DNA of 12,239 bases from Gemmatimonadota bacterium (GTDB lineage: Bacteria; GCA-2686955). The stretch spans positions 1-12,239 of the forward strand of contig NYZA01000246.1 in NCBI GenBank assembly GCA_002686955.1, in the 5' to 3' direction. The position numbers were made by a program, and so were the translations under genes. The notes below the pieces were generated by a model. The model had not been told where the DNA came from. It saw only the letters and a program-made list of their open reading frames with translations, and made no database searches. Below are positions 2,546 to 12,239 of the stretch, piece after piece (position 1 is the stretch's first letter; the number at the start of each line of letters is the position of its first letter).

Positions 2546-2798
2546 CGCCACCTCGGGAGGAGGCTGCACTTTAGCCACCAAGCAACGATCGACTTCGGTA
2601 TGAAAGTCGAAGACCCCAGGGGGGACCGCGCACTGGTCCTCTGATCTCCGCCCTTCACAGCCAGGCATGCCCCCCGGCTCCGCTCGCCCGAACCGGCAAG
2701 TCCGTGAGCGCGCAGCGGCAACACCAATTCGCCCGCCTTCATCGTGCGGCGTCGGGCTCCCGCCCGAAGGCCCGGCCCACCCGCACGATCTCCACATC
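2546..2798. repeat. Repeat R1, copy 1
   Basis: A 253-bp stretch matching 5673-5925 with no net insertion or deletion; by hand count about 22 mismatches, roughly 91% identity. Its first codons, read on the plus strand, spell RHLGRRLHF, which in copy 2 is the continuation of an iorA-derived reading frame, so copy 1 carries the same junction. It includes a small hairpin (TCGACTT near 2590 with AAGTCGA). It begins one base after the OmpA-like stop codon and ends exactly where a FlgD-like protein tail begins. It is not convincingly coding: open frames on both strands differ between copies. The function is unknown. Confidence 0.85.
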
Positions 2799-2969
2799 AA
2801 GGGCGCGCTGGTGCGGGTTCTGGTGGATGGTCCGCGCCCCGTGGGCCTGCACCGCGTGCGTTGGGACGGCCTGAGCTCTGCCGGGCTCGCGGTCCCGAGC
2901 GGCGTCTACGTTGCCCGACTCGAAACGGGCGATGTTCGGGAGACCAGGAGGTTGCTCTTGGTCAAGTAA
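2799..2969 (+). pseudogene. Truncated C-terminal tail of a FlgD-like/sorting-domain exported protein
   Basis: The reading frame ending at the TAA at 2967-2969 encodes about 56 residues with the hallmark FlgD Ig-like / C-terminal secretion tail pattern: ALVRVLVDG, GLHRVRWDG, then SGVYVARLETG and a terminal ETRRLLLVK. In FCB-type bacteria such tails end long exported proteins. Everything N-terminal is missing, because the frame runs leftward straight into R1. It is therefore a decayed gene end cut at the R1 border. It is not expected to be functional; an in-frame ATG inside R1 (2667) would give a 100-residue hybrid but has no evident ribosome binding site. Confidence 0.75.
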
Positions 2970-2988
2970 GGGTTGCCGTCTCCGCCCC

Positions 2989-3085
2989 TACTCCCCCTTC
3001 ATCGACTCCGGCGCCGATCCCGGCGCCCTCGATCCCGATCGGCCCCACCCCCGACATCGGCGCCTACGAGCTCCCTTACGCCACA
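2989..3085 (+). pseudogene. Frameshifted remnant of a beta-helix protein C-terminus
   Basis: Frame from 2989 reads YSPFIDSGADPGALDPD, then the frame shifts by one base and DIGAYEL is read from 3053. Together these are the two halves of the common C-terminal cap of parallel beta-helix ('choice-of-anchor Q') proteins, SPxIDxGD...DIGAYE. The same cap, in variant form, is present intact in both beta-helix genes of this window (SPCIDAGD, SPCVDAGD). The remnant is about 30 residues long and out of frame internally, so it is non-functional. It sits between the FlgD-like tail and the next gene fragment, which shows that several unrelated gene ends were packed together here. Confidence 0.6.
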
Positions 3086-3106
3086 CCCGCCACTGCCGAC
3101 ATCCAC

Positions 3107-3297
3107 TCCCCCGATGCCGTCGCGCCGTCTCGGCGCTGTCGCTCGCCTCCGCGTTCGTCGCGCTCCGGAGCGCCCCGGCCCAGGCCGCGGGCATCCTCGT
3201 CCAACCCGAAGTCCTGATCTCTCGGACGGCGTCGACTATCGACCAGTCCCAAGACGAGATCTTCGATGTGCTGCAGTACAGCAGCCTCGTCATCCAG
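3107..3297 (+). pseudogene. Internal fragment of the small exported-protein gene (partial copy of 6327-6517)
   Basis: These 191 bp align to 6327-6517 without gaps and with about nine mismatches (roughly 95% identity). The piece encodes residues about 7-70 of the 159-residue protein at 6308: most of the signal peptide and the first conserved block ISRTASTIDQSQDEIFDV. The start codon, the ribosome binding site and the C-terminal 89 residues are missing. The reading frame is still open across the fragment, so the truncation looks recent. It is the strongest marker that module A is a degraded relative of module B. Confidence 0.9.
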
Positions 3298-3649
3298 CGG
3301 CTTGGACGACTATCCTCATCGGTACGTCGGCACGGTCGGCGTTGGGGTAAACAGGCCCTGTGGCTGGTTCGCAATCGCGGGCCGGCGCTTTCGGCTACTC
3401 TCGAAGGCAGCTTCTTCCCCTTCTGCTCGACGACAATCACACCTCCCCATCGACGCGGAGAGCTTGGCCGCCGACGTTTCGTGTTTCTCTGCCCTTTCCC
3501 CCGGATACCTGACCATACGCCCGATCGGGGGGATGTCGTATGCACCGATCGATGTGGTGGGGATCGGGGGAGCACACCATCAGGCGGTGACAGCCGCGAG
3601 ACAGTAGATGCGTTGTCGAGACGATCGACCCGAGAGAGAAGAGGCCGAC
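3298..3649. other. Unassigned gap upstream of the first beta-helix gene
   Basis: No convincing gene in these 352 bp. A plus-strand frame open to 3607 is simply the continuation of the truncated fragment's neighbours and matches nothing I recognise. The interval 3514-3542 has nested dyads: CATACG (3514-3519) with CGTATG (3537-3542), enclosing the perfect palindrome CCCGATCGGG (3520-3529). The promoter for the beta-helix gene is probably in this gap but no good -35/-10 pair was found. Confidence 0.4.
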
Positions 3650-4888
3650 ATGATCTTCACGCGAATCATCGAGACCGGCGTGCCGGTTCAGCGGCTGCTG
3701 ATCGCAGCGATCGGGCTGCTGATCTGCTCGAGCCTGGGCGCGAGCGCCACCGCCAGAACCATCCGAGTGCCCTCGGAGTACGGAAAGATCCAGCAAGCGA
3801 TCGATGTGGCGGTGGACGGAGACGTTGTAGTCATCGCGCCCGGCACCTATCGGGAAATGGGGATCTCCTTTCTCGGAAAGAAGATCATGGTGAGGGGCGT
3901 CGATCCATGGGATGACGAAGTGGTACAGGCGACCACGGTAGTGGGCGACACGACCTCGCCCGATCGCCATTTTGTTTTCGAGTCTGGAGAGGACTCCATG
4001 AGCGTACTGGCCGGAATCAGGCTCTCCGGGGAGAATCAGGTGTTTGACGGTGGCACCGGCGGCATTTCCGTATCGGCCTCTTCGCCTACGATTGCTCTAT
4101 GCTGGATCGAGGGGTGTCATGCACCATCCGATCAGATCATAGAGGAGGGAGGGGGGGCGTGGGTGGGCCCGAACAGCGCCCCTCTATTCGTGCGATGTTG
4201 GTTTCAGAGAAACTACGGCTACCACGCGGGGGGAGGGATCAGGGTGAAGGGGCCGGCCCAGCCGCGGATCCTGGCCTGTGGTTTCGAGGAGAACCGGGTG
4301 ACGTCTCTCGGTGGCGGTGTCGCGTGTACGAGCTCCGCCTTCACAGTCGCGAACTGTCTGTTCATCGCGAACGAGCTGTGCGGCGGAGCGAATCAAGGAG
4401 GAGGCATAAGAGTAGGTGATGGAGGCGGGACCATTGTGAACTGTACTTTCTACGGGAATGCCGAAGTGTGTATCAGTGAAGATCACGGCATCTACATGAA
4501 GTGGGATTCGACGGCAGTGAACAACTGTGTCCTTGTCGGCGATTACCCTACCGTGAAGCAGAGAGACAACAGTCAAAGCACGATCTCCTACACCAACCTA
4601 CCGGAGGGCTGGCCCGGCCCGGGGAATATCAGCGATAGCCCACGCCTACAGACCGTTCGCGAATGGCCTTTTGTGTTGGGGGCCGGCTCTCCCTGCATCG
4701 ACGCCGGAGACCCGAGCATCGAGGACGGGGTGAGGTGGCCGACACAGTATCGCAACGGTTCAAGAAGCGACATGGGGGCCTATGGGGGTCCGTACAGCGG
4801 CCTTTGGCTGGGGCGCTGGCCGCGGGGGTTGGAATGGCTGAAAGGGCATTTGGGGGAAGTGAGGGAGGCAGGCGGGGAAGCGCATTAG
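3650..4888 (+). CDS. Exported right-handed parallel beta-helix protein (module A)
   Basis: A 412-residue protein. The ATG at 3650 is preferred over the in-frame ATG at 3608 because an AG-rich ribosome binding site ending in GAGG (3641-3644) lies five bases upstream and a signal peptide follows directly (hydrophobic core about 16-30, cleavage near residue 36). The beta-helix N-cap IRVPSEYGKIQQAID...DGD...APGTY is at about 38-67. Several helix turns with GGGAWV, GGGIRV, GGGVAC and GGGIRV motifs follow. The C-terminal cap includes SPCIDAGD (347-354) and DMGAYGG. Such proteins are often glycan-binding or glycan-cleaving surface proteins, but no catalytic residues can be assigned. It is the paralogue of the protein at 10794, with which it shares the whole architecture but clearly diverged sequence. 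It appears intact and is followed 59 bp later by repeat R2. Confidence 0.85.
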   Translation: MIFTRIIETGVPVQRLLIAAIGLLICSSLGASATARTIRVPSEYGKIQQAIDVAVDGDVVVIAPGTYREMGISFLGKKIMVRGVDPWDDEVVQATTVVGDTTSPDRHFVFESGEDSMSVLAGIRLSGENQVFDGGTGGISVSASSPTIALCWIEGCHAPSDQIIEEGGGAWVGPNSAPLFVRCWFQRNYGYHAGGGIRVKGPAQPRILACGFEENRVTSLGGGVACTSSAFTVANCLFIANELCGGANQGGGIRVGDGGGTIVNCTFYGNAEVCISEDHGIYMKWDSTAVNNCVLVGDYPTVKQRDNSQSTISYTNLPEGWPGPGNISDSPRLQTVREWPFVLGAGSPCIDAGDPSIEDGVRWPTQYRNGSRSDMGAYGGPYSGLWLGRWPRGLEWLKGHLGEVREAGGEAH

Positions 4889-4901
4889 CCGTTGGGATCA
4901 T

Positions 4902-4927
4902 TCTACTTCGTGCGTAGAGAGTTCTTT
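4902..4927 (+). terminator. Weak hairpin after the first beta-helix gene
   Basis: TCTAC (4902-4906) and GTAGA (4914-4918) form a 5-bp stem with a 7-nt loop, 13 bases after the stop codon and followed by GAGTTCTTT. It is short and the U-tract is interrupted, so it is at best a weak terminator. Confidence 0.25.
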
Positions 4928-4947
4928 CCGGGGCGCATGCGGCGATT

Positions 4948-5200
4948 GGCGCTCCGTGATCGCGAGGCTCGGGAGGTTGGCGCGGACGCGATCAGGCCCG
5001 CCCCCCCGCACACGCGTTCAAAAGCCCCCGCGCCGAGCCCCATTCGGGCAGGCAGCCCCCGCGCAGGCGTCGCTCCCGTGGTCGAAAACCGGAAAACGCA
5101 CAGCGCCCCCCCGGGAAGTCATTGCCCCATCCCCGGAAGGACGCCGCCCGAGAGACGAAGCCCCATCCCCGCACCAGGCCGGGAACTTCGACGCGAAAGA
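4948..5200. repeat. Repeat R2, copy 1
   Basis: Matches 11978-12239 over its full visible length, starting at GGCGCTCCGTGATCGCGAGG and ending at ACGCGAAAGA. The right-hand 190 bp is nearly identical. A short block around 4984-5006 differs and accounts for a 9-bp length difference. Both copies follow the 3' end of a beta-helix gene. A minus-strand frame of about 60 codons is open in both copies, but most differences inside it change the amino acid, which argues against a selected protein. It probably is non-coding repeat DNA of unknown origin. Confidence 0.85.
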
Positions 5201-5291
5201 TCGCGGATGCAATGCCGCGAAGCCACGATCAACCGCTAACATTGGGGGTTAGATCAGCCGCCCCCATCCGCAGGCCCGCCCGATCCATCTC
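5201..5291. other. Spacer between R2 and the iorA fragment
   Basis: 91 bp with no gene. A small dyad CTAAC (5236-5240) / GTTAG (5248-5252) is present. There is no ribosome binding site ahead of the iorA-derived ATG at 5292, in keeping with that reading frame being non-functional. Confidence 0.4.
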
Positions 5292-5771
5292 ATGGAGATT
5301 ACTCCCACCCCCGACGCCGCGAATTCCCGCTCCGCCTCGAAGGTGGCGGTGCACCGCCTGCTCGCCGATCCGCCGGGGGGCCGGAGCCTGCTTCTGGGGA
5401 ACGAGGCGATCGTTCGGGGGGCGCTCGAAGCGGGGGTCGGTTTCGCCACGGGCTATCCCGGCACGCCCTCGTCGGAGGTAACCGATTCGTTCGCGGAGCT
5501 GAGCGACGAGGCGGGGCTGGTTTTCGAGTACGCGGTCAACGAGAAAATCTGTCTCGAGCTGGCGTTTGGGGCTTCGCTGGCGGGGGCGCGGGCGATCTGC
5601 GCGATGAAGCATCTGGGGTTGATCGTGGCGGGGGATCCTTCGTGCCTGACCAGTCCGAACGAGCAGGATCAGCGTCATCTCGGGAGGATGCTGCACTTTA
5701 GCCGCCATGCAACGATCGACTCCGGAATTGAAGTCGAAGACCCCCGGGGGGATCGCGCACTGGTCCTCTAA
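5292..5771 (+). pseudogene. iorA: Truncated, internally deleted iorA fused in frame to repeat R1
   Basis: The reading frame encodes the N-terminal part of indolepyruvate ferredoxin oxidoreductase subunit alpha, an enzyme of anaerobic aromatic amino acid and 2-oxoacid oxidation. The thiamine-diphosphate-fold signature is visible as LLGNEAIVRGALEAGV (about 34-49), GYPGTPSSEVTD (54-65), EYAVNEKICLELAFGASLAG (78-97) and MKHLGLIVAGDP. In intact family members about 20-25 residues separate that motif from the (D/G)DPS...NEQDxR motif; here VAGDP runs directly into SCLTSPNEQDQR, so an internal in-frame deletion is likely. After RHLGRMLHF the frame enters R1 and stops at 5769-5771. About 135 of the usual 600 or so residues remain, there is no ribosome binding site, and no iorB partner is nearby. 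Confidence 0.8.
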
Positions 5772-5925
5772 TCTCCGCCCTTCGCAGCCAGGCATGCCCT
5801 CCGGCTCCGCTCGCCCGAACCGGCAAGTCCGTGAGCGCGCACCGGCAACACCAATTCGCCAGCCTTCATCGTTCGGTCTCGGGCTCCCGCCCGAAGGCTC
5901 GTTCCACCCGCACGATCTCCACATC
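5673..5925. repeat. Repeat R1, copy 2
   Basis: Gap-free partner of 2546-2798. Here the left edge lies inside the iorA reading frame at RHLGRMLHF, so this copy preserves the junction from which the other can be derived. It contains the same TCGACT/AGTCGA dyad (about 5717-5738) and a C-run/G-run at the GACCCCCGGGGGG block. Minus-strand frames are open but differ in the other copy. Confidence 0.85.
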
Positions 5926-6129
5926 GACCAGATCGCTCGCCTCGATCGAGCTCCCGAAGAGCCCCCAGCGCGCCTTGACGCGGTCTGGCGAACTGCAAGC
6001 GCACTGCCCGTATCCAAACGTCAGGGCCGCACGTTGCTCCGGCTTGTCCTCATTGTCTCGGTGGCCCATACTGAGTGTCAGAGAGGGCAATCGCGCCCCC
6101 GCGGAGTGCGCGCAATGAGGCGAAAACCG
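5926..6129. other. Unassigned gap right of R1 copy 2
   Basis: No gene could be supported in this stretch. A minus-strand frame (5866-6150) begins with a TTG codon, has no evident ribosome binding site and runs into R1, so it is not called. Confidence 0.4.
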
Positions 6130-6307
6130 TTGACACAGTGTGATATGCAAGGGACCTTCAGGCGCCCGGGCCTACCCCTCGCCCCACGCCGCTGACGCGG
6201 CGAGGCTGTCCCTCTACCCGACCGAACGAAGCGATTTCAGACCCCACGAGCCCAGCAGCCGGCGCGTGGGGTTTTCTTTTTCCCCGGCTTCCACTGGAGG
6301 TTCATCC
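6130..6307 (+). promoter_or_regulatory. Leader of the four-gene operon with possible attenuator
   Basis: TTGACA at 6130-6135 is a perfect -35 hexamer but no good -10 lies at the usual spacing, so the promoter is unresolved. Downstream is a GC-rich hairpin CGCCGC (6187-6192) / GCGGCG (6197-6202), then the terminator-like hairpin at 6241-6280. The sequence CCCCACG occurs twice, at 6182-6188 and 6242-6248, and both copies can pair with CGTGGGG (6265-6271). The two pairings exclude one another. GGAGG (6296-6300) and the ATG at 6308 follow. This fits transcription attenuation ahead of the operon; no known riboswitch class was recognised. Confidence 0.35.
6241..6280 (+). terminator. Intrinsic terminator-like hairpin 28 bp before the operon's first gene
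   Basis: ACCCCACG (6241-6248) pairs perfectly with CGTGGGGT (6265-6272) around a 16-nt loop and is followed by TTTTCTTTTT (6271-6280 region). This is the clearest rho-independent terminator in the window. It has no intact plus-strand gene upstream for 1.3 kb and sits just ahead of a ribosome binding site. It is therefore either a leftover end of a lost gene or a leader attenuator. Confidence 0.7.
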
Positions 6308-6787
6308 ATGACTCGCCAACACTTTTTCCCCCGATGCCGTCGCGTCTTCACGGCGCTGTCACTCGCCTCCGCGTTCATCGTGCTCCGGAGCGCCCCGGCC
6401 CAGGCCGCGGGCATCCTCGTCCAGCCCGAAGTCCTTATCTCTCGGACGGCGTCGACTATCGACCAGTCCCAAGACGAGATCTTCGATGTGCTGCAGTACA
6501 CCAGCCTCGTCATCCAGGTGAAGGTCCACGAGGAGAACATCACCGCCAACAAGTGGGTCAAGGTGCACTTGCAGACAGGGAACACCCTTTCGACGCAGGA
6601 CTACAAGACGATTCAGTCGGTGGTCTTCGACAAGACATCCGACACCGCTCCCGATGTCTGGCTCGAGATGGTCTCGATCGACTCCGCCACGCCCCTCGGC
6701 CGGTATCTGCGCTGGCAGGCGGAGTTCGAGGACCCGACCTCCAGCCAGTGGTTCACCTTCAGCGCGGTTGCGGTCGGGCGGAACTAG
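6308..6787 (+). CDS. Small exported protein, unknown family, paralogue 1
   Basis: A 159-residue protein with GGAGG (6296-6300) seven bases before the ATG. The signal peptide is residues 1-33 (RCRR, hydrophobic core, APAQA/AG). The mature part is about 126 residues. Conserved blocks shared with the next gene are: ISRTASTIDQSQDEIFDV (about 44-61), KVHLQTGNTLSTQD (85-98), and LGRYLRWQAEF (130-140) followed by SSQW. The alternation of short hydrophobic strands suggests a small beta-sandwich. No cysteines are present in the mature protein. I do not recognise the family. First gene of the operon; a 191-bp fragment of a close copy lies at 3107-3297. Confidence 0.85.
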   Translation: MTRQHFFPRCRRVFTALSLASAFIVLRSAPAQAAGILVQPEVLISRTASTIDQSQDEIFDVLQYTSLVIQVKVHEENITANKWVKVHLQTGNTLSTQDYKTIQSVVFDKTSDTAPDVWLEMVSIDSATPLGRYLRWQAEFEDPTSSQWFTFSAVAVGRN

Positions 6788-6811
6788 CCGACTCGGGAAG
6801 GAAGGCACGCC

Positions 6812-7264
6812 ATGCGCCCAAACAGAATCGCCTTGTTCGCGATCCCGCTTCTTTCACTTGTCGCGATTCAGCCGCCAGCATCGGCACAGATCGGGCAAGG
6901 CCAGCAGGAGATCCAGATCACGCGCACCGCCGCGACCGTCGCTCAGCCGCAGGAGGAGGTCTGGGACGTGATGCCCTACACCCACGCCACGCTCCAGCTC
7001 AAGGTCACCGAGCTCAGCTTGACCGGCGGCGCCAGCATTCACTTCTATCTGCAAACATCGAACACCCTCTCCGATCAGGACTGGGTGCCGATGGACACTC
7101 TGACCGTGCCCGCGGCGGCCACGATGCCGCAGTTCGACATCGTCGAGCTCTCGCTGGATAGCCCGAATCCACTCGGCCACTACCTGCGCTGGCAGGCGGA
7201 GTTTTCCCACTCTTCGAGCACGCAGTACGCGGTGTTCTGGGTGGATTTGGTGGGGCGGAGGTGA
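6812..7264 (+). CDS. Small exported protein, unknown family, paralogue 2
   Basis: A 150-residue protein; AGGAAGG (6799-6805) lies six bases before the ATG and 24 bp separate it from the preceding stop. Signal peptide 1-25 (PPASA/QI). It repeats the pattern of the previous gene at lower identity: ITRTAATVAQPQEEVWDV (36-53), HFYLQTSNTLSDQDW (77-91), LGHYLRWQAEF (121-131) and SSSTQ, ending VGRR against VGRN in its partner. The two are therefore an old tandem duplication rather than a recent one. Its stop codon overlaps the GTG start of the next gene by four bases (GTGA, 7261-7264), which implies translational coupling. The function is unknown; a structural or binding module associated with the large VCBS protein is an inference from context. 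Confidence 0.85.
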   Translation: MRPNRIALFAIPLLSLVAIQPPASAQIGQGQQEIQITRTAATVAQPQEEVWDVMPYTHATLQLKVTELSLTGGASIHFYLQTSNTLSDQDWVPMDTLTVPAAATMPQFDIVELSLDSPNPLGHYLRWQAEFSHSSSTQYAVFWVDLVGRR

Positions 7265-10200
7265 GGGCGGGGAGGGGCTCGGCGGGGGCGACGCCTAGGC
7301 GCGCCCGATCGGGCGTCGTACTCTTGCTCTTGTCGTCATCTTTCGTGCTCGCGAGCGCCGAGCGCCTGTCTTGGCGGCGCGATACATCCCACTACTTCGA
7401 TTGGTTACCCACCCCCATGGGCGAAGAGAGCTACATGCCATGGACCTGGCCGGAGGCTCCGGGGACGACCAAGTCTCGCCCTTCCGACAGCATCTTCCGC
7501 CGTCTTGTGATGCTCGACATCAACCAGGATGGTCTGGCCGATCTCGTGGGTGCGTCGAGGGCCGACTTTGATGCCTACGCCGACGATCCGACGGGCGGTT
7601 GGCTCGAGCAGTGGCCCTGCTACTGGCTCAATATCGGAACGAGAGAGCGCCCGCTCTGGAAGACCGATTGGATATGGCAGGACGATCTCGAGCTGGAGGG
7701 GGCGACCATCGGCCACGCCGCGAGCGCCACGCCGGTCTTTCTTCCCGGCGACGAGTACCCCGATCTCTACATCGGCATCTCCGAGCCCGCTCCGGGAAGC
7801 GGCTACACTCCTCATCTGCTCGCCGTCACCAATACCGGCGCCCCACCGTACTACGCCTATCATAGATCGTTCTCCCCCACGCTGCACCCGCAGCACCTTG
7901 CGGACGGAACCCCGGTGCCTTTTCCGGAGATAGCGGGATTCACCGACTACGGCTTCTGGTCGCCTGGCGTGTACAATCCGGATCTGACTCTCGCCGGTCC
8001 TCAAAGCCTCGTCATCGGTTCCTACTTGACGGGTCAAGACACCGCGGTGGGTCGCCTCCACGGATTCGAGAACACGAATCTCGGCGGGGATTGGACAGTC
8101 TGGGAGCGGATGGATCCCGACCCCTTCGAGGGCTTGGAGATTCCCTATGGCGGGGAGTTGGATCCGCGCAACGACGAGTGGCGCGTGACCGCTGAATCGG
8201 CCTGGGCCCGCCACACCTACCCCTACCCCTCTCTCGCCCACCGAGCAAACCCCGCCTTCGCCGATCTCGACGGTGATGGCGAGCAAGAGATGATCGTCGG
8301 CGGCGGAGATGGAGAGCTGCACGCGTACGAGCGAAGCGGCGACGGCTGGGAGCCGGCCGATGATCTCATCGCCGAGATCATCGAGGAGCGAAGGCGATTC
8401 GGCGTTGTTGTCGTCACCGATGCATCAGCGACGGGTGAATGGCCCGAGCAGACCAATGCGCCACGCACCGACATCGCCAAAGGCAAACTCGCATCCCGCT
8501 TCGACACGGTGCCCAGCGCGCTTGATTTCGACGGAGACGGCGACCAGGACCTCCTCATCTGGAATCATCGAGGTGCGCTTCTCTATCTCAACGAAGGCCT
8601 GACACCGCGGAACGCGCTCTCCGCAACGATCGTCGCGGATGGATATGTGTACCACCTCGATGAGGACCTATTCTCCTCGCACTTGATCCTCACGAACAAC
8701 GCCCCGACAGCGCGCGATCTGGACATCGTCACGCGCCTTTTCGGCCCCGAGAACGAGCTGGCTTCCGTTCTCCACGAGGACGTCGTCTCGATCGAAGCCA
8801 ACTCCACGCGTCGTCTCGACCTACAGTCGGTTGGCGTTGGCGTTGCGTGGCCCGAGGGTCCCTGCCGTGTCACGATTCGCGTCACTCCATCGCCCAGTGA
8901 CCCGGAGGCTGCCTCCGCATACGCCTCCGTCAATATCCTGGTCAAAGATGTACCGACCTTTGAGGTCGAGGAGACCCCTTTCGTACCCGACGACACGAAT
9001 CTCTTCGCCCACATACCGGATCACTTCAACGGGAACGGGTTCGTGCATCTGGTCGATGTCGGGGATATCAATGGCGATGGCACGGCTGATGTGGTCTTCA
9101 CAGCGACACAGAAAAACCACAATTATCGATCTTCGCATCCTGGCTTTGCGATCAACCGAGGGATCTTGGGGCGTCCGTCCTGGGACGCGGGCTGGAATTT
9201 CGGCCTGCTATTGGTGTGTTACCTGGGCCGTGCCACGAAATACGGACAGAACACTGTTTCGAGTTTGGGAGATTTCGATAGGGATGGGTGGGGTGATATC
9301 TTCATCGGTGAGAAGAAGGGGCGGGACTCAGGTCCCGCGAGCTGGCTGGATGCATCAGAACCGACGTATGAGGCCGGTGAAGAGAGAGAGCATTGGTATT
9401 ATCGCTTCCACGGAGGCCTGGGACACCCAGAGCGCTACTTGCCTTGGCCGGACTTTCCTTGCCCGCCAATCCCGGACAACTATGAGGATTGTGATTGCTT
9501 GTCCCCGGCCCGCAGCATCGAGATCGATGAATGCGGGCACGAGGAGTGCCTGGAAGGCGAGCCCGACTGCCCACATTGGTGCTGTGCATGCGACGCGAAC
9601 TGCTTGCCGAGGCACCTTACCGTCAACTGGGGAAAACAGATCTACGGGTGGTGGGTCGACTCCGGCGCGGGCGAATGGTGGGCGCCGACGGCCGGGCATT
9701 GGGATCGAGATGGTCTATTGGACGTGCTCGTCGGTTTCCGCATGGGGTTGACCAAAGCCTACGGTAACGATGGCTACGTAGCGCTTCTAGCACGGACAGA
9801 GCTCGCTCGAGAAGAAGGGCTTGACCAGCGGATGATGGGCGCTGTGAGTAACTGTCTCGATTGGCTCGACAGTGATTACGATACAATGTTCGACTTTCCG
9901 ACAATGGAAGGCTATCCGGATGGAGAACATGGGCTTGAGGAAGATTGGTACAATTTGGAGCTTCTCCCAAGAGAGGCTGGCTATCGACCGGACTACACGA
10001 TTGGACCACGCGCCTTGCCGGCTATGGCCGACATCGACGAGGATGGCGTATTGGAGCTCTATGTCGGGAGGGCTGACGGCAACATATATCAGTACAGCCG
10101 GGAAGGCGGCCCGTGGCAACCGACCGATATGTTGGTGGGCATCGAGGAACGAAACGACGGTGGTCTATACTCTCCTCACGAGGGTCTAACCACTCGCCCC

Positions 10201-10797
10201 TCATTCTACGACTGGGACGGAGACGGTGATGACGACGTGCTGATATCGGATGTCAACGGCCTGCACCCGTACGAGAACGTGAAGTACCGGCGGGCGATCG
10301 ATGTGGAGTTGAACTCAGATGTGTCACATGTCAGTGACACGGGGCCAGGCTCGGTCGTTCGGCTGACCGCCCGAGTGAGCAACGAGTTCAAGGCGGGCGA
10401 TTCGGATGTCAAACGGATCATCGTGAGCAGAAGCGAGATCATTCACGCCGCACCCGACAATCATCCGCTGGAAACGATCGTTGTCGGCGGGCGGCGCGAG
10501 CTGGAACCGGAACAGGCTTGGAGCAAGGAGTTGACGGTGAATCTCGAGGGCGACACGCCGGGGGAGCATCGCTTTGGGTTACGAGTCAGCGGCGTAATGG
10601 TGCCGCTTGGCGAGCGGGTGCGAGGAAGCACCAACTGGATGCCGACCGCGGAAGGCCCAATGGAGATCGTGGGGGACCGTGTGGCGGTACCGGTGGAGCC
10701 CGCCGGACAGCGAATCGGCGGGCTGGCGGATGTACCGATTCAGGTGATGGCCGGCGCGGAGGGCGCCATGATGTCGATTGGAGGCAGGCGACGATGA
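7261..10797 (+). CDS. Large exported FG-GAP/VCBS-repeat protein
   Basis: A 1178-residue protein starting at the GTG in the GTGA overlap; no better start lies before the signal peptide (residues 1-33, LLLLSSSFVLASA/E). At least eight DxDxDG calcium-binding loops of FG-GAP/VCBS repeats are visible: DINQDG (86-91), DLDGDG (335-340), DFDGDG (422-427), DINGDG (602-607), DFDRDG (671-676), HWDRDG (813-818), DIDEDG (924-929), DWDGDG (984-989). They usually build beta-propeller blades of secreted or surface adhesins. A beta-sandwich-like linker (about 450-585) splits the repeats. A cluster of ten cysteines occupies 734-781, in a protein otherwise nearly free of cysteine. The C-terminus (about 1000-1178) looks like a CARDB/Ig-type sandwich. 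Its ATGA overlap couples it to the next gene. The ligand and partners are unknown. Confidence 0.88.
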   Translation: MRAGRGSAGATPRRARSGVVLLLLSSSFVLASAERLSWRRDTSHYFDWLPTPMGEESYMPWTWPEAPGTTKSRPSDSIFRRLVMLDINQDGLADLVGASRADFDAYADDPTGGWLEQWPCYWLNIGTRERPLWKTDWIWQDDLELEGATIGHAASATPVFLPGDEYPDLYIGISEPAPGSGYTPHLLAVTNTGAPPYYAYHRSFSPTLHPQHLADGTPVPFPEIAGFTDYGFWSPGVYNPDLTLAGPQSLVIGSYLTGQDTAVGRLHGFENTNLGGDWTVWERMDPDPFEGLEIPYGGELDPRNDEWRVTAESAWARHTYPYPSLAHRANPAFADLDGDGEQEMIVGGGDGELHAYERSGDGWEPADDLIAEIIEERRRFGVVVVTDASATGEWPEQTNAPRTDIAKGKLASRFDTVPSALDFDGDGDQDLLIWNHRGALLYLNEGLTPRNALSATIVADGYVYHLDEDLFSSHLILTNNAPTARDLDIVTRLFGPENELASVLHEDVVSIEANSTRRLDLQSVGVGVAWPEGPCRVTIRVTPSPSDPEAASAYASVNILVKDVPTFEVEETPFVPDDTNLFAHIPDHFNGNGFVHLVDVGDINGDGTADVVFTATQKNHNYRSSHPGFAINRGILGRPSWDAGWNFGLLLVCYLGRATKYGQNTVSSLGDFDRDGWGDIFIGEKKGRDSGPASWLDASEPTYEAGEEREHWYYRFHGGLGHPERYLPWPDFPCPPIPDNYEDCDCLSPARSIEIDECGHEECLEGEPDCPHWCCACDANCLPRHLTVNWGKQIYGWWVDSGAGEWWAPTAGHWDRDGLLDVLVGFRMGLTKAYGNDGYVALLARTELAREEGLDQRMMGAVSNCLDWLDSDYDTMFDFPTMEGYPDGEHGLEEDWYNLELLPREAGYRPDYTIGPRALPAMADIDEDGVLELYVGRADGNIYQYSREGGPWQPTDMLVGIEERNDGGLYSPHEGLTTRPSFYDWDGDGDDDVLISDVNGLHPYENVKYRRAIDVELNSDVSHVSDTGPGSVVRLTARVSNEFKAGDSDVKRIIVSRSEIIHAAPDNHPLETIVVGGRRELEPEQAWSKELTVNLEGDTPGEHRFGLRVSGVMVPLGERVRGSTNWMPTAEGPMEIVGDRVAVPVEPAGQRIGGLADVPIQVMAGAEGAMMSIGGRRR

Positions 10798-11972
10798 AAG
10801 GGTCCACCAGACGCCCCAGCTGCGCACTCGCATTACTGCCGTGGCTCGCATGCCACGGTCTCGCCCTCTCCGCGATCTTGCGCGTACCCCAAGACCACGC
10901 CACGATCCAGGGCGCCATCGACGCGGCCCAAGACGGCGATCGCGTGATCATCGAGCCCGGCACCTACAAAGAATGGGCCGTGGACTTTCGGGGCAAGGCG
11001 ATCAGCGTGGAGGGTACTGATCCATGCAGCCGAGCGGTGATAGAGGCTACGGTTGTTGATGGGGATTCAATTGACTCAGTAGTGGTGTTCCGTTCAGGGG
11101 AAGACACAACATCTGTTCTGTGCGGCCTGACCATAACTGGTGGCATGCCCAGGAACCATGGCGGCGGTGGAGTGTGGTGTGACAACAGCGCCAGCCCCCG
11201 GATCAGCGACTGCAATATCGTACACAATCATGCATTGGGAGGGAATGGCGGGGGAGTGAGTGTTGCTAACTATTCAGGGGGGAGCCACCCGATCATCGAG
11301 AGATGTAGAATCGCGCATAATTCGGGCGCGAGTCAAGGGGGCGGCGTGGCCGTCGGGGACTTTGGCGGCGACGTGGAGCTACGAAATTGCCTTGTCACTC
11401 ACAATCGGGCGAGCATGTACGGAGGTGGCGTGGGCGTGAGGGGTCGCTCCGCCTACCTTCACAGCACGCTGCTCCTCGACAATTCGGCTGGACTCAAAGG
11501 GACCAGCGTAAGCGTCAGATACGCAGATGAGCTGAAGATGAGCTTCTGCACAGTCGCCGGGAATAGGGGGGATGCGGACAACGCCATCCACATACGCTTC
11601 GGCGTTGACGCGACACTCTCCAACTGCATCATCTACAACAACGTCATGCCCCCGCTAGGCGAAGACCCCATGAACGTGAGCTTCTCCGACGTTGAGGGCG
11701 GCTACGAGGGAGAGGGAAATATCGACGCCACTCCGCTTTTCCGTTCTTACCGCGTCGGTAGCTACCTCCTGCGGCCCGGCTCTCCCTGCGTCGATGCCGG
11801 CGATCCGCAGTTGGCCGACGGTTTCAGGTGGCCGCCGTGGTACGACAACGATTGGCGAAGAGCCGACATGGGAGCCTTCGGCGGGCCCGGGAACCGTGGA
11901 TGGGTGCCGGGGGGGTGCGAAGAGAGCGTTTTCGTGCCGGAAGTGGGGTTGGATCCGAGAGGGGAGCATTGA
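10794..11972 (+). CDS. Exported right-handed parallel beta-helix protein (module B)
   Basis: A 392-residue protein. The ATG at 10794 overlaps the previous stop as ATGA and has GGAGG (10780-10784) nine bases upstream; in-frame codons further upstream lie inside the VCBS gene. Signal peptide 1-27 (LACHGLALSA/IL). N-cap LRVPQDHATIQGAID...DGD...EPGTY (about 29-58), then helix turns with GGGGVWC, GGGVSV, GGGVAV and GGGVGV, and a GNIDATPLF strand. C-cap SPCVDAGD (330-337) and DMGAFGG. Cysteines recur at turns (DC, RC, NC, FC), a pattern also seen in its paralogue at 3650. Last gene of the operon; it probably works alongside the VCBS protein. A carbohydrate substrate is possible but no active site can be assigned. 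Confidence 0.88.
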   Translation: MKGSTRRPSCALALLPWLACHGLALSAILRVPQDHATIQGAIDAAQDGDRVIIEPGTYKEWAVDFRGKAISVEGTDPCSRAVIEATVVDGDSIDSVVVFRSGEDTTSVLCGLTITGGMPRNHGGGGVWCDNSASPRISDCNIVHNHALGGNGGGVSVANYSGGSHPIIERCRIAHNSGASQGGGVAVGDFGGDVELRNCLVTHNRASMYGGGVGVRGRSAYLHSTLLLDNSAGLKGTSVSVRYADELKMSFCTVAGNRGDADNAIHIRFGVDATLSNCIIYNNVMPPLGEDPMNVSFSDVEGGYEGEGNIDATPLFRSYRVGSYLLRPGSPCVDAGDPQLADGFRWPPWYDNDWRRADMGAFGGPGNRGWVPGGCEESVFVPEVGLDPRGEH

Positions 11973-11984
11973 GCGCCGGCGCTC
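11971..11984. repeat. 14-bp perfect palindrome over the operon's last stop codon
   Basis: GAGCGCCGGCGCTC begins inside the TGA stop (11970-11972) and runs into the left edge of R2 copy 2. The corresponding site at R2 copy 1 (about 4941-4954) keeps only the right half. It has no U-tract, so it is not an intrinsic terminator by itself. Confidence 0.5.
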
Positions 11985-12239
11985 CGTGATCGCGAGGCTC
12001 GGGAGGTTGGCGCGAACGCGCTTCGGCCCGGCCCGGGTCGCCTACCGCACACGCGTTCAAAAGCCCCCGCGCCGAGCCCCATTCGGGCCGGCAGCCCCCG
12101 CGCAGGCGTCGCTCCCATGTTCGAAGACCGGAAAACGCACAGCGCCCCCCGGGGAAGTCATTGCCCCATCCCCGGAAAGACGCCGCCCGAGAGACGAAGC
12201 CCCATCCCCGCACCCGGCCGGGAACTTCGACGCGAAAGA
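11978..12239. repeat. Repeat R2, copy 2 (cut by window end)
   Basis: Matches 4948-5200, beginning six bases after the beta-helix stop codon and still matching at the last base of the window, so its true right end is not visible. It is nine bases longer than copy 1 over the same span because of a variable block around 12014-12045. Its position behind a beta-helix gene mirrors copy 1. Confidence 0.85.

Follow-up and report, generated by a model that had tools for sequence, protein, structure and literature searches.

Tandem duplication or amplification followed by remodelling has been described in bacteria (PMC8942028, PMC7661048), and bacterial genomes also carry dispersed repeats such as repetitive extragenic palindromic (REP) sequences, bacterial interspersed mosaic elements (BIME), REP doublets forming hairpins (REPIN) and miniature inverted-repeat transposable elements (MITE), which occur in many intergenic copies per genome, in both orientations and with some convergent pairs (PMC3733652, PMC3116915, PMC2817692). 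REP/REPIN elements are built on a palindrome of 20-40 bp with a GTAG or CGTC tag (PMC3733652). Here we analyse a stretch of a Gemmatimonadota draft genome, referred to as the window (the entire contig C246, 12,239 bp; other contigs of this genome are named likewise), in which two groups of exported-protein genes, unit A on the left and unit B on the right, are each accompanied by two repeats, R1 and R2. An earlier note had read these as two modules with the same gene order, produced either by duplication of a whole cassette or by capture of two cassettes between copies of one repeat, with later decay of the left module, and had raised repeat-bordered exchange of such cassettes as a diversification system. 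Our results suggest that the window probably arose by tandem duplication, followed by deletion and patching, in a family of paralogous clusters of exported-protein genes, and that R1 and R2 were carried along passively. Like the described tandem duplications, the window has the head-to-tail order, a joint of the downstream gene iorA with the upstream R1 flank, remnants of extra copies and a deletion at short direct repeats. It differs in being old and heavily decayed, with an interior replaced by unrelated paralogous genes and with endpoints that are not recoverable, and we classify it as a tandem duplication that has decayed and been patched rather than as a clean one. No relevant match to such duplication of surface-protein genes emerged from a literature search.

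Comparison of the window with itself revealed three block pairs, in identical order and strand (E 1e-82 to 1e-106): the R1 pair (2545-2798 and 5672-5925, 254 bp, 91.3% identity), a fragment of the gene small1 and its counterpart (3107-3297 and 6327-6517, 191 bp, 95.3%), and the R2 pair (4948-5200 and 11978-12239, about 250 bp, 91.6%). These pairs, with the direct order and orientation shared by both halves, are as the earlier note had described them, and the beta-helix gene that it placed ahead of each R2 is real in both cases: bh1 (3650-4888; intact, exported, Pfam PF13229 E 4.5e-11) and bh2 (10794-11972; PF13229 E 3e-12). Here and below, features are on the plus strand unless stated otherwise. 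The two beta-helix genes are not duplicates of each other, however. Their amino acid identity is just 35%, and the genome has about 69 beta-helix places in all; thus, no whole cassette was duplicated. Moreover, unit B contains no recent homolog of the interior of unit A (2799-3106 and 3298-4947). In the left unit, the R1 block consists of R1 itself (core at about 2600-2700) and the final codons of an exported-protein gene in convergent orientation (2573-2798, a copy of 5700-5925, recognized in the R1 family alignment), and the long R2 copy at 4948-5200 has its core at 5002-5124. In the right unit, R1 and the minus-strand 3' end of the convergent gene (...IEASDLVDVEIVR...) occupy 5700-5984 (84% identical to C55, C172 and C229), and the long R2 copy at 11978-12239 reaches the contig end.

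What lies between the blocks of unit A is a series of shards, two of which had been missed in the original gene list. The first is the C-terminus of an exported protein with a FlgD-Ig tail (2799-2968; 73% DNA identity to C53:4512-4681), whose match to Pfam FlgD_ig is just under the cut-off (E 1.8e-5). The second is a frameshifted inner part of a beta-helix gene (DIGAYELPYATPAT; 2973-3106), 81% identical to C234:4216-4348 and 85% to C66:2-127. It is followed by the small1 shard, with both ends missing and with 3 synonymous and 6 nonsynonymous differences from small1, a neutral-like ratio, and then by sequence (3298-3607) for which a search of 482 kb of loci from this genome found no homolog. 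The shard ends are sharp, the FlgD-tailed, beta-helix and small1 pieces abutting at 2799, about 2970, 3107 and 3297.

Between the two units lies a truncated iorA gene (5292-5699), of the indolepyruvate:ferredoxin oxidoreductase type as judged from its POR_N domain and its match to contig C168. Window 5428-5638 corresponds to C168:1-211 at 94% identity and 5634-5699 to C168:270-335 at 98%; the intervening loss of 59 bp falls between the copies of a 12-bp direct repeat. The left R1 block opens with the final 28 bp of this same piece (2545-2572, equal to 5672-5699 and matching C168:308-335), placed directly 3' of the stop codon of an OmpA-like gene. Thus, the proposed R1 border contains a real repeat, but the first 28 bp of each block are iorA sequence. 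The joint between iorA and R1 is the same at 5699/5700 and at 2572/2573, and the intact iorA in C168 runs on differently past this point. A novel joint of the tandem-duplication type is therefore present twice, which points to tandem duplication of a segment running from R1 through R2 into iorA, with 5699/5700 as the proposed duplication joint. Together with the blocks in the same order and the truncated iorA between the units, the repeated joint supports the part of the earlier proposal that invoked duplication and then decay of the left copy.

Contig C168 opens inside the intact iorA, which is fused to further domains. In window coordinates, the right end of C246 is equivalent to position 5200 and the first base of C168 to 5428, so that the two contigs edge one 227-bp gap, the 5' end of iorA. 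Because both stop at the edges of this gap in register, C168 probably follows the window; no other contig of the genome has the missing 5' stretch (window 5240-5427). Note that the IorA of C168 is apparently fused in-frame to a second domain (PCAEQCPLGLCIQGYAGHVAAG...CRVCHRPCE) resembling the glutamate-synthase small-subunit type.

These observations suggest the following model. A segment comprising the left flank of R1, small1, small2, a large exported protein, a beta-helix gene and R2, and extending into iorA, would have been duplicated head to tail, creating the novel iorA|R1 joint. The right copy (unit B) would have stayed intact, probably continuing into the functional iorA with which C168 begins, while the left copy or copies would have lost most of their DNA and acquired, by illegitimate recombination, shards of other genes for exported proteins as patches. 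Both repeats would have been carried along as ordinary dispersed intergenic repeats and not as recombination sites. In this order of events, a single duplication would account for all three block pairs. Similar linked duplications carrying R1 occur elsewhere in the genome, for example at C166:10819-11472 and 15134-15769, favouring duplication. On this contig, C166:10819-12018 and 15134-16285 form a second linked duplication (87% and 84% identity), with one R1 per copy and a beta-helix gene between the copies.

Several results weigh against this model. Firstly, the whole unit between the joints is not duplicated, the interior of unit A being unrelated to that of unit B. Since this interior consists of shards, of a beta-helix gene with 35% amino acid identity to its counterpart and of the stretch without a homolog, duplication alone does not suffice and replacement must be invoked as well. 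Rather than being a plain decayed copy of unit B, unit A either had its interior replaced or was an older cluster into which unit B patches were copied. The latter alternative, with unit A as a separate and older cluster that received patches of 254, 191 and about 750 bp from unit B by gene conversion or short-tract recombination, without any tandem duplication, seems unlikely to us but deserves consideration. The likeness is limited to discrete patches in an unrelated interior, the patch identities vary (91-98%), and paralogous patches of 150-770 bp at 84-95% identity are common in this genome. Gene conversion does not, however, simply explain why neighbouring unrelated sequence, iorA fused to R1, is present in both places.

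Secondly, the iorA pieces differ by 10 synonymous and 3 nonsynonymous changes (P 4e-4). This mostly synonymous pattern indicates that both copies were still functional when they diverged, which is the main argument against a simple recent duplication: the pattern would fit a once-functional, long-lived duplicate, or DNA of a related strain, better than a neutral pseudogene of recent origin. Finally, the source is a 4.28-Mb draft in 270 contigs, 84.5% complete, and a joint could be chimeric. We consider it improbable that the contig was assembled from strains or related species in a metagenome, even though repeats or duplicated sequence form the ends of both the window and C168, R1 and R2 copies are found near contig ends in excess of expectation, and the iorA copies differ as orthologs of two strains would. 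The copies are 2-9% different and therefore not assembler duplicates; the joints share little sequence, whereas graph assemblers require tens of identical bases to join contigs; and the same kind of mosaic is seen in several contigs.

Next, we analysed the distribution of the two repeats. R1 (core of about 103 nt) and R2 (about 130 nt) are both dispersed intergenic repeats: the whole-genome search placed R1 at 40 and R2 at 18 positions, and a profile search of 1.6 Mb of sampled sequence found at least 73 distinct R1 and at least 36 distinct R2 copies. Only 3 of the 73 R1 copies and 1 of the 36 R2 copies lie inside well-scoring predicted genes, the remainder being intergenic. Both orientations are represented, as are all arrangements of the flanking genes. 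R1 and R2 share with the REP, BIME, REPIN and MITE families their many intergenic copies, found in both orientations and including some convergent pairs. R1 is likewise apparently confined to its own genome: of 40 other genomes searched, only two had a match, short and trivial in both cases, and the genome of the same family had none. Unlike those families, R1 and R2 are about 100-130 nt long, R1 has no supported palindrome and its consensus has no GTAG, and no tyrosine transposase was found for them. The genome has a single Y1_Tnp gene, and the 6.3 kb of surrounding sequence examined contains neither repeat; we therefore rejected a system of REP sequences with a REP-associated tyrosine transposase (RAYT). 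An integron cassette array was also rejected, the R1 and R2 consensus lacking, by inspection, the GTTRRRY site of attC (RYYYAAC/GTTRRRY ends). Neither repeat matched a known RNA at the Rfam gathering score (the best hit, 17.9 bits against 49, is meaningless). The consensus fold of R1 has 7 pairs with no compensatory change, and R1 was not retained as a structured RNA; in R2, a short stem shows some changes on both sides.

Dispersed repeats are unusually abundant in this genome. Several further families have repeats of 170-230 bp, and at least two have repeats of 165-190 bp at 84-96% identity, one of these at C17:57848, C88:3575, C199:7636, C165:12301, C264:6831 and C35:8953, and another at C155:2145, C239:34937, C97:21666, C24:10370 and C47:1. 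The window itself starts in a third dispersed repeat (1-139; about 180 bp, palindromic), with further copies in C155, C108, C228 and C183 and similar places in C176, C34, C39 and C29, and it stops inside R2.

This distribution bears on the proposal that R1 and R2 are recombination borders between which exported-protein cassettes are swapped. In its favour, the window has two units in which a beta-helix gene lies between R1 and R2, and C197 has an R1 (at 6411), two genes, a beta-helix gene and then a weak R2 match (21.9 bits). Moreover, on contigs that were not selected for R1 or R2, the combined density was about twofold higher on those with beta-helix genes (25 copies in 620 kb) than on controls (10 in 500 kb; P 0.06), which is at best a slight excess. 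However, 10 of 54 repeat copies lie within 5 kb of a beta-helix gene, no more than the 10.0 expected for random positions on the same contigs. The repeats lie in all orientations and between genes of every type, and across the genome they occur without exported-protein genes between them, the outcome that the earlier note had named as refuting its idea. The same two repeats were not found flanking different cassettes at several loci, C197 being one weak further case, and the R1 blocks of the window begin inside iorA and not at an R1 border. We therefore regard repeat-bordered exchange as very unlikely.

Unit B belongs to a family of paralogous clusters with exported beta-helix or FlgD-tailed proteins. 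Its first gene, small1 (6308-6787), encodes a small exported protein without a Pfam match and with paralogs in C32 and C53; it is probably all-beta, as in a structure model whose pLDDT of 57 is too poor for a fold search. The second, small2 (6812-7264), is a small1 paralog (41% amino acid identity) and is 91% identical in amino acids to the C53 copy. The third encodes a large exported protein of the FG-GAP/VCBS type (7261-10797; PF13517 E 5e-21) and the fourth is bh2. The same order of small1, small2, large gene and beta-helix gene is found in C32, where the cluster is complete, and, with a different large gene, in C53; the window differs in its FG-GAP/VCBS type large gene and in the decayed neighbour alongside. 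The intact C32 cluster has neither R1 nor R2 within the 14 kb fetched, which argues further against these repeats as cassette borders.

Comparison with C53 indicated that the genes behind small2 vary. C53:1-595 corresponds to window 6673-7267 (the end of small1 plus small2) at 88.9% DNA identity and departs at the small2 stop codon; past it, the window has the FG-GAP/VCBS gene, whereas C53 has a large gene of the beta-helix type, which on inspection looks like the one in C32, together with a beta-helix gene with a FlgD tail. Thus, the idea that exported genes are exchanged holds in so far as the gene content behind the small1-small2 pair varies, but the breakpoint is the small2 stop codon, where there is no repeat, and not R1 or R2. 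Variation also extends to C169, where a gene that looks like a fusion, with 17 initial codons from a small1-like gene and the 3' part from a large gene of the C53 and C32 type, sits behind a leader 76% identical to that of small1 (6082-6317; C169:792-1014, the only match). In this leader, about 30 nt ahead of the start codon, fold prediction gives a hairpin (ACCCCACG...CGTGGGGTTTTC) that is strong and terminator-like, is conserved ahead of the two different genes and could be an attenuator; C32 retains only the final part of the leader.

One could thus imagine a constant head (leader, small1 and small2) behind which the downstream genes are exchanged by one active, recurrent diversification process. 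Its products would be the window (VCBS plus beta-helix), C53, C32 and the fused remnant in C169, with the dispersed repeats as occasional substrates. We give this reading little chance. Low-copy duplications (150-770 bp, 84-95% identity) have 2.95 ends per 100 kb on beta-helix contigs and 1.40 on controls, in a comparison of small numbers to which the window itself contributes. As a side observation, several exported proteins have a C-terminal domain in common (DIGAYE/DIGPFE...IEASDxVDxEI; C66:2-454, C234:4223-4675, and in C55, C172 and C229). In C55 and C172, the 3' end of the gene with this domain adjoins R1 and is duplicated with it, and C229 carries the matching gene end at the contig edge.

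The left border of the rearranged region is an intact gene for an OmpA-like exported protein (1087-2544; Pfam PF00691 E 6.5e-19), and the duplicated material begins one base past its stop codon, at the joint 2544/2545. On the minus strand, at the left edge of the contig, is a gene for an exported protein with a polysaccharide lyase 14 domain (170-991; PF21294 E 1.8e-26). The one other genome of the phylum examined has no orthologs of OmpA, the iorA fusion or small1; one distant OmpA relative was found in another genome.

Finally, R1 and R2 are common in this genome, so their presence beside a gene cluster says little. If the pattern of a constant head and variable cargo were active, it would represent surface-protein diversification without a known recombinase. 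In the duplication model that we favour, the window would instead represent a secreted-protein cluster that was duplicated, truncated and patched, likely by ordinary mechanisms of rearrangement, in a poorly sampled bacterial lineage, and recognizing it as such removes a false lead.

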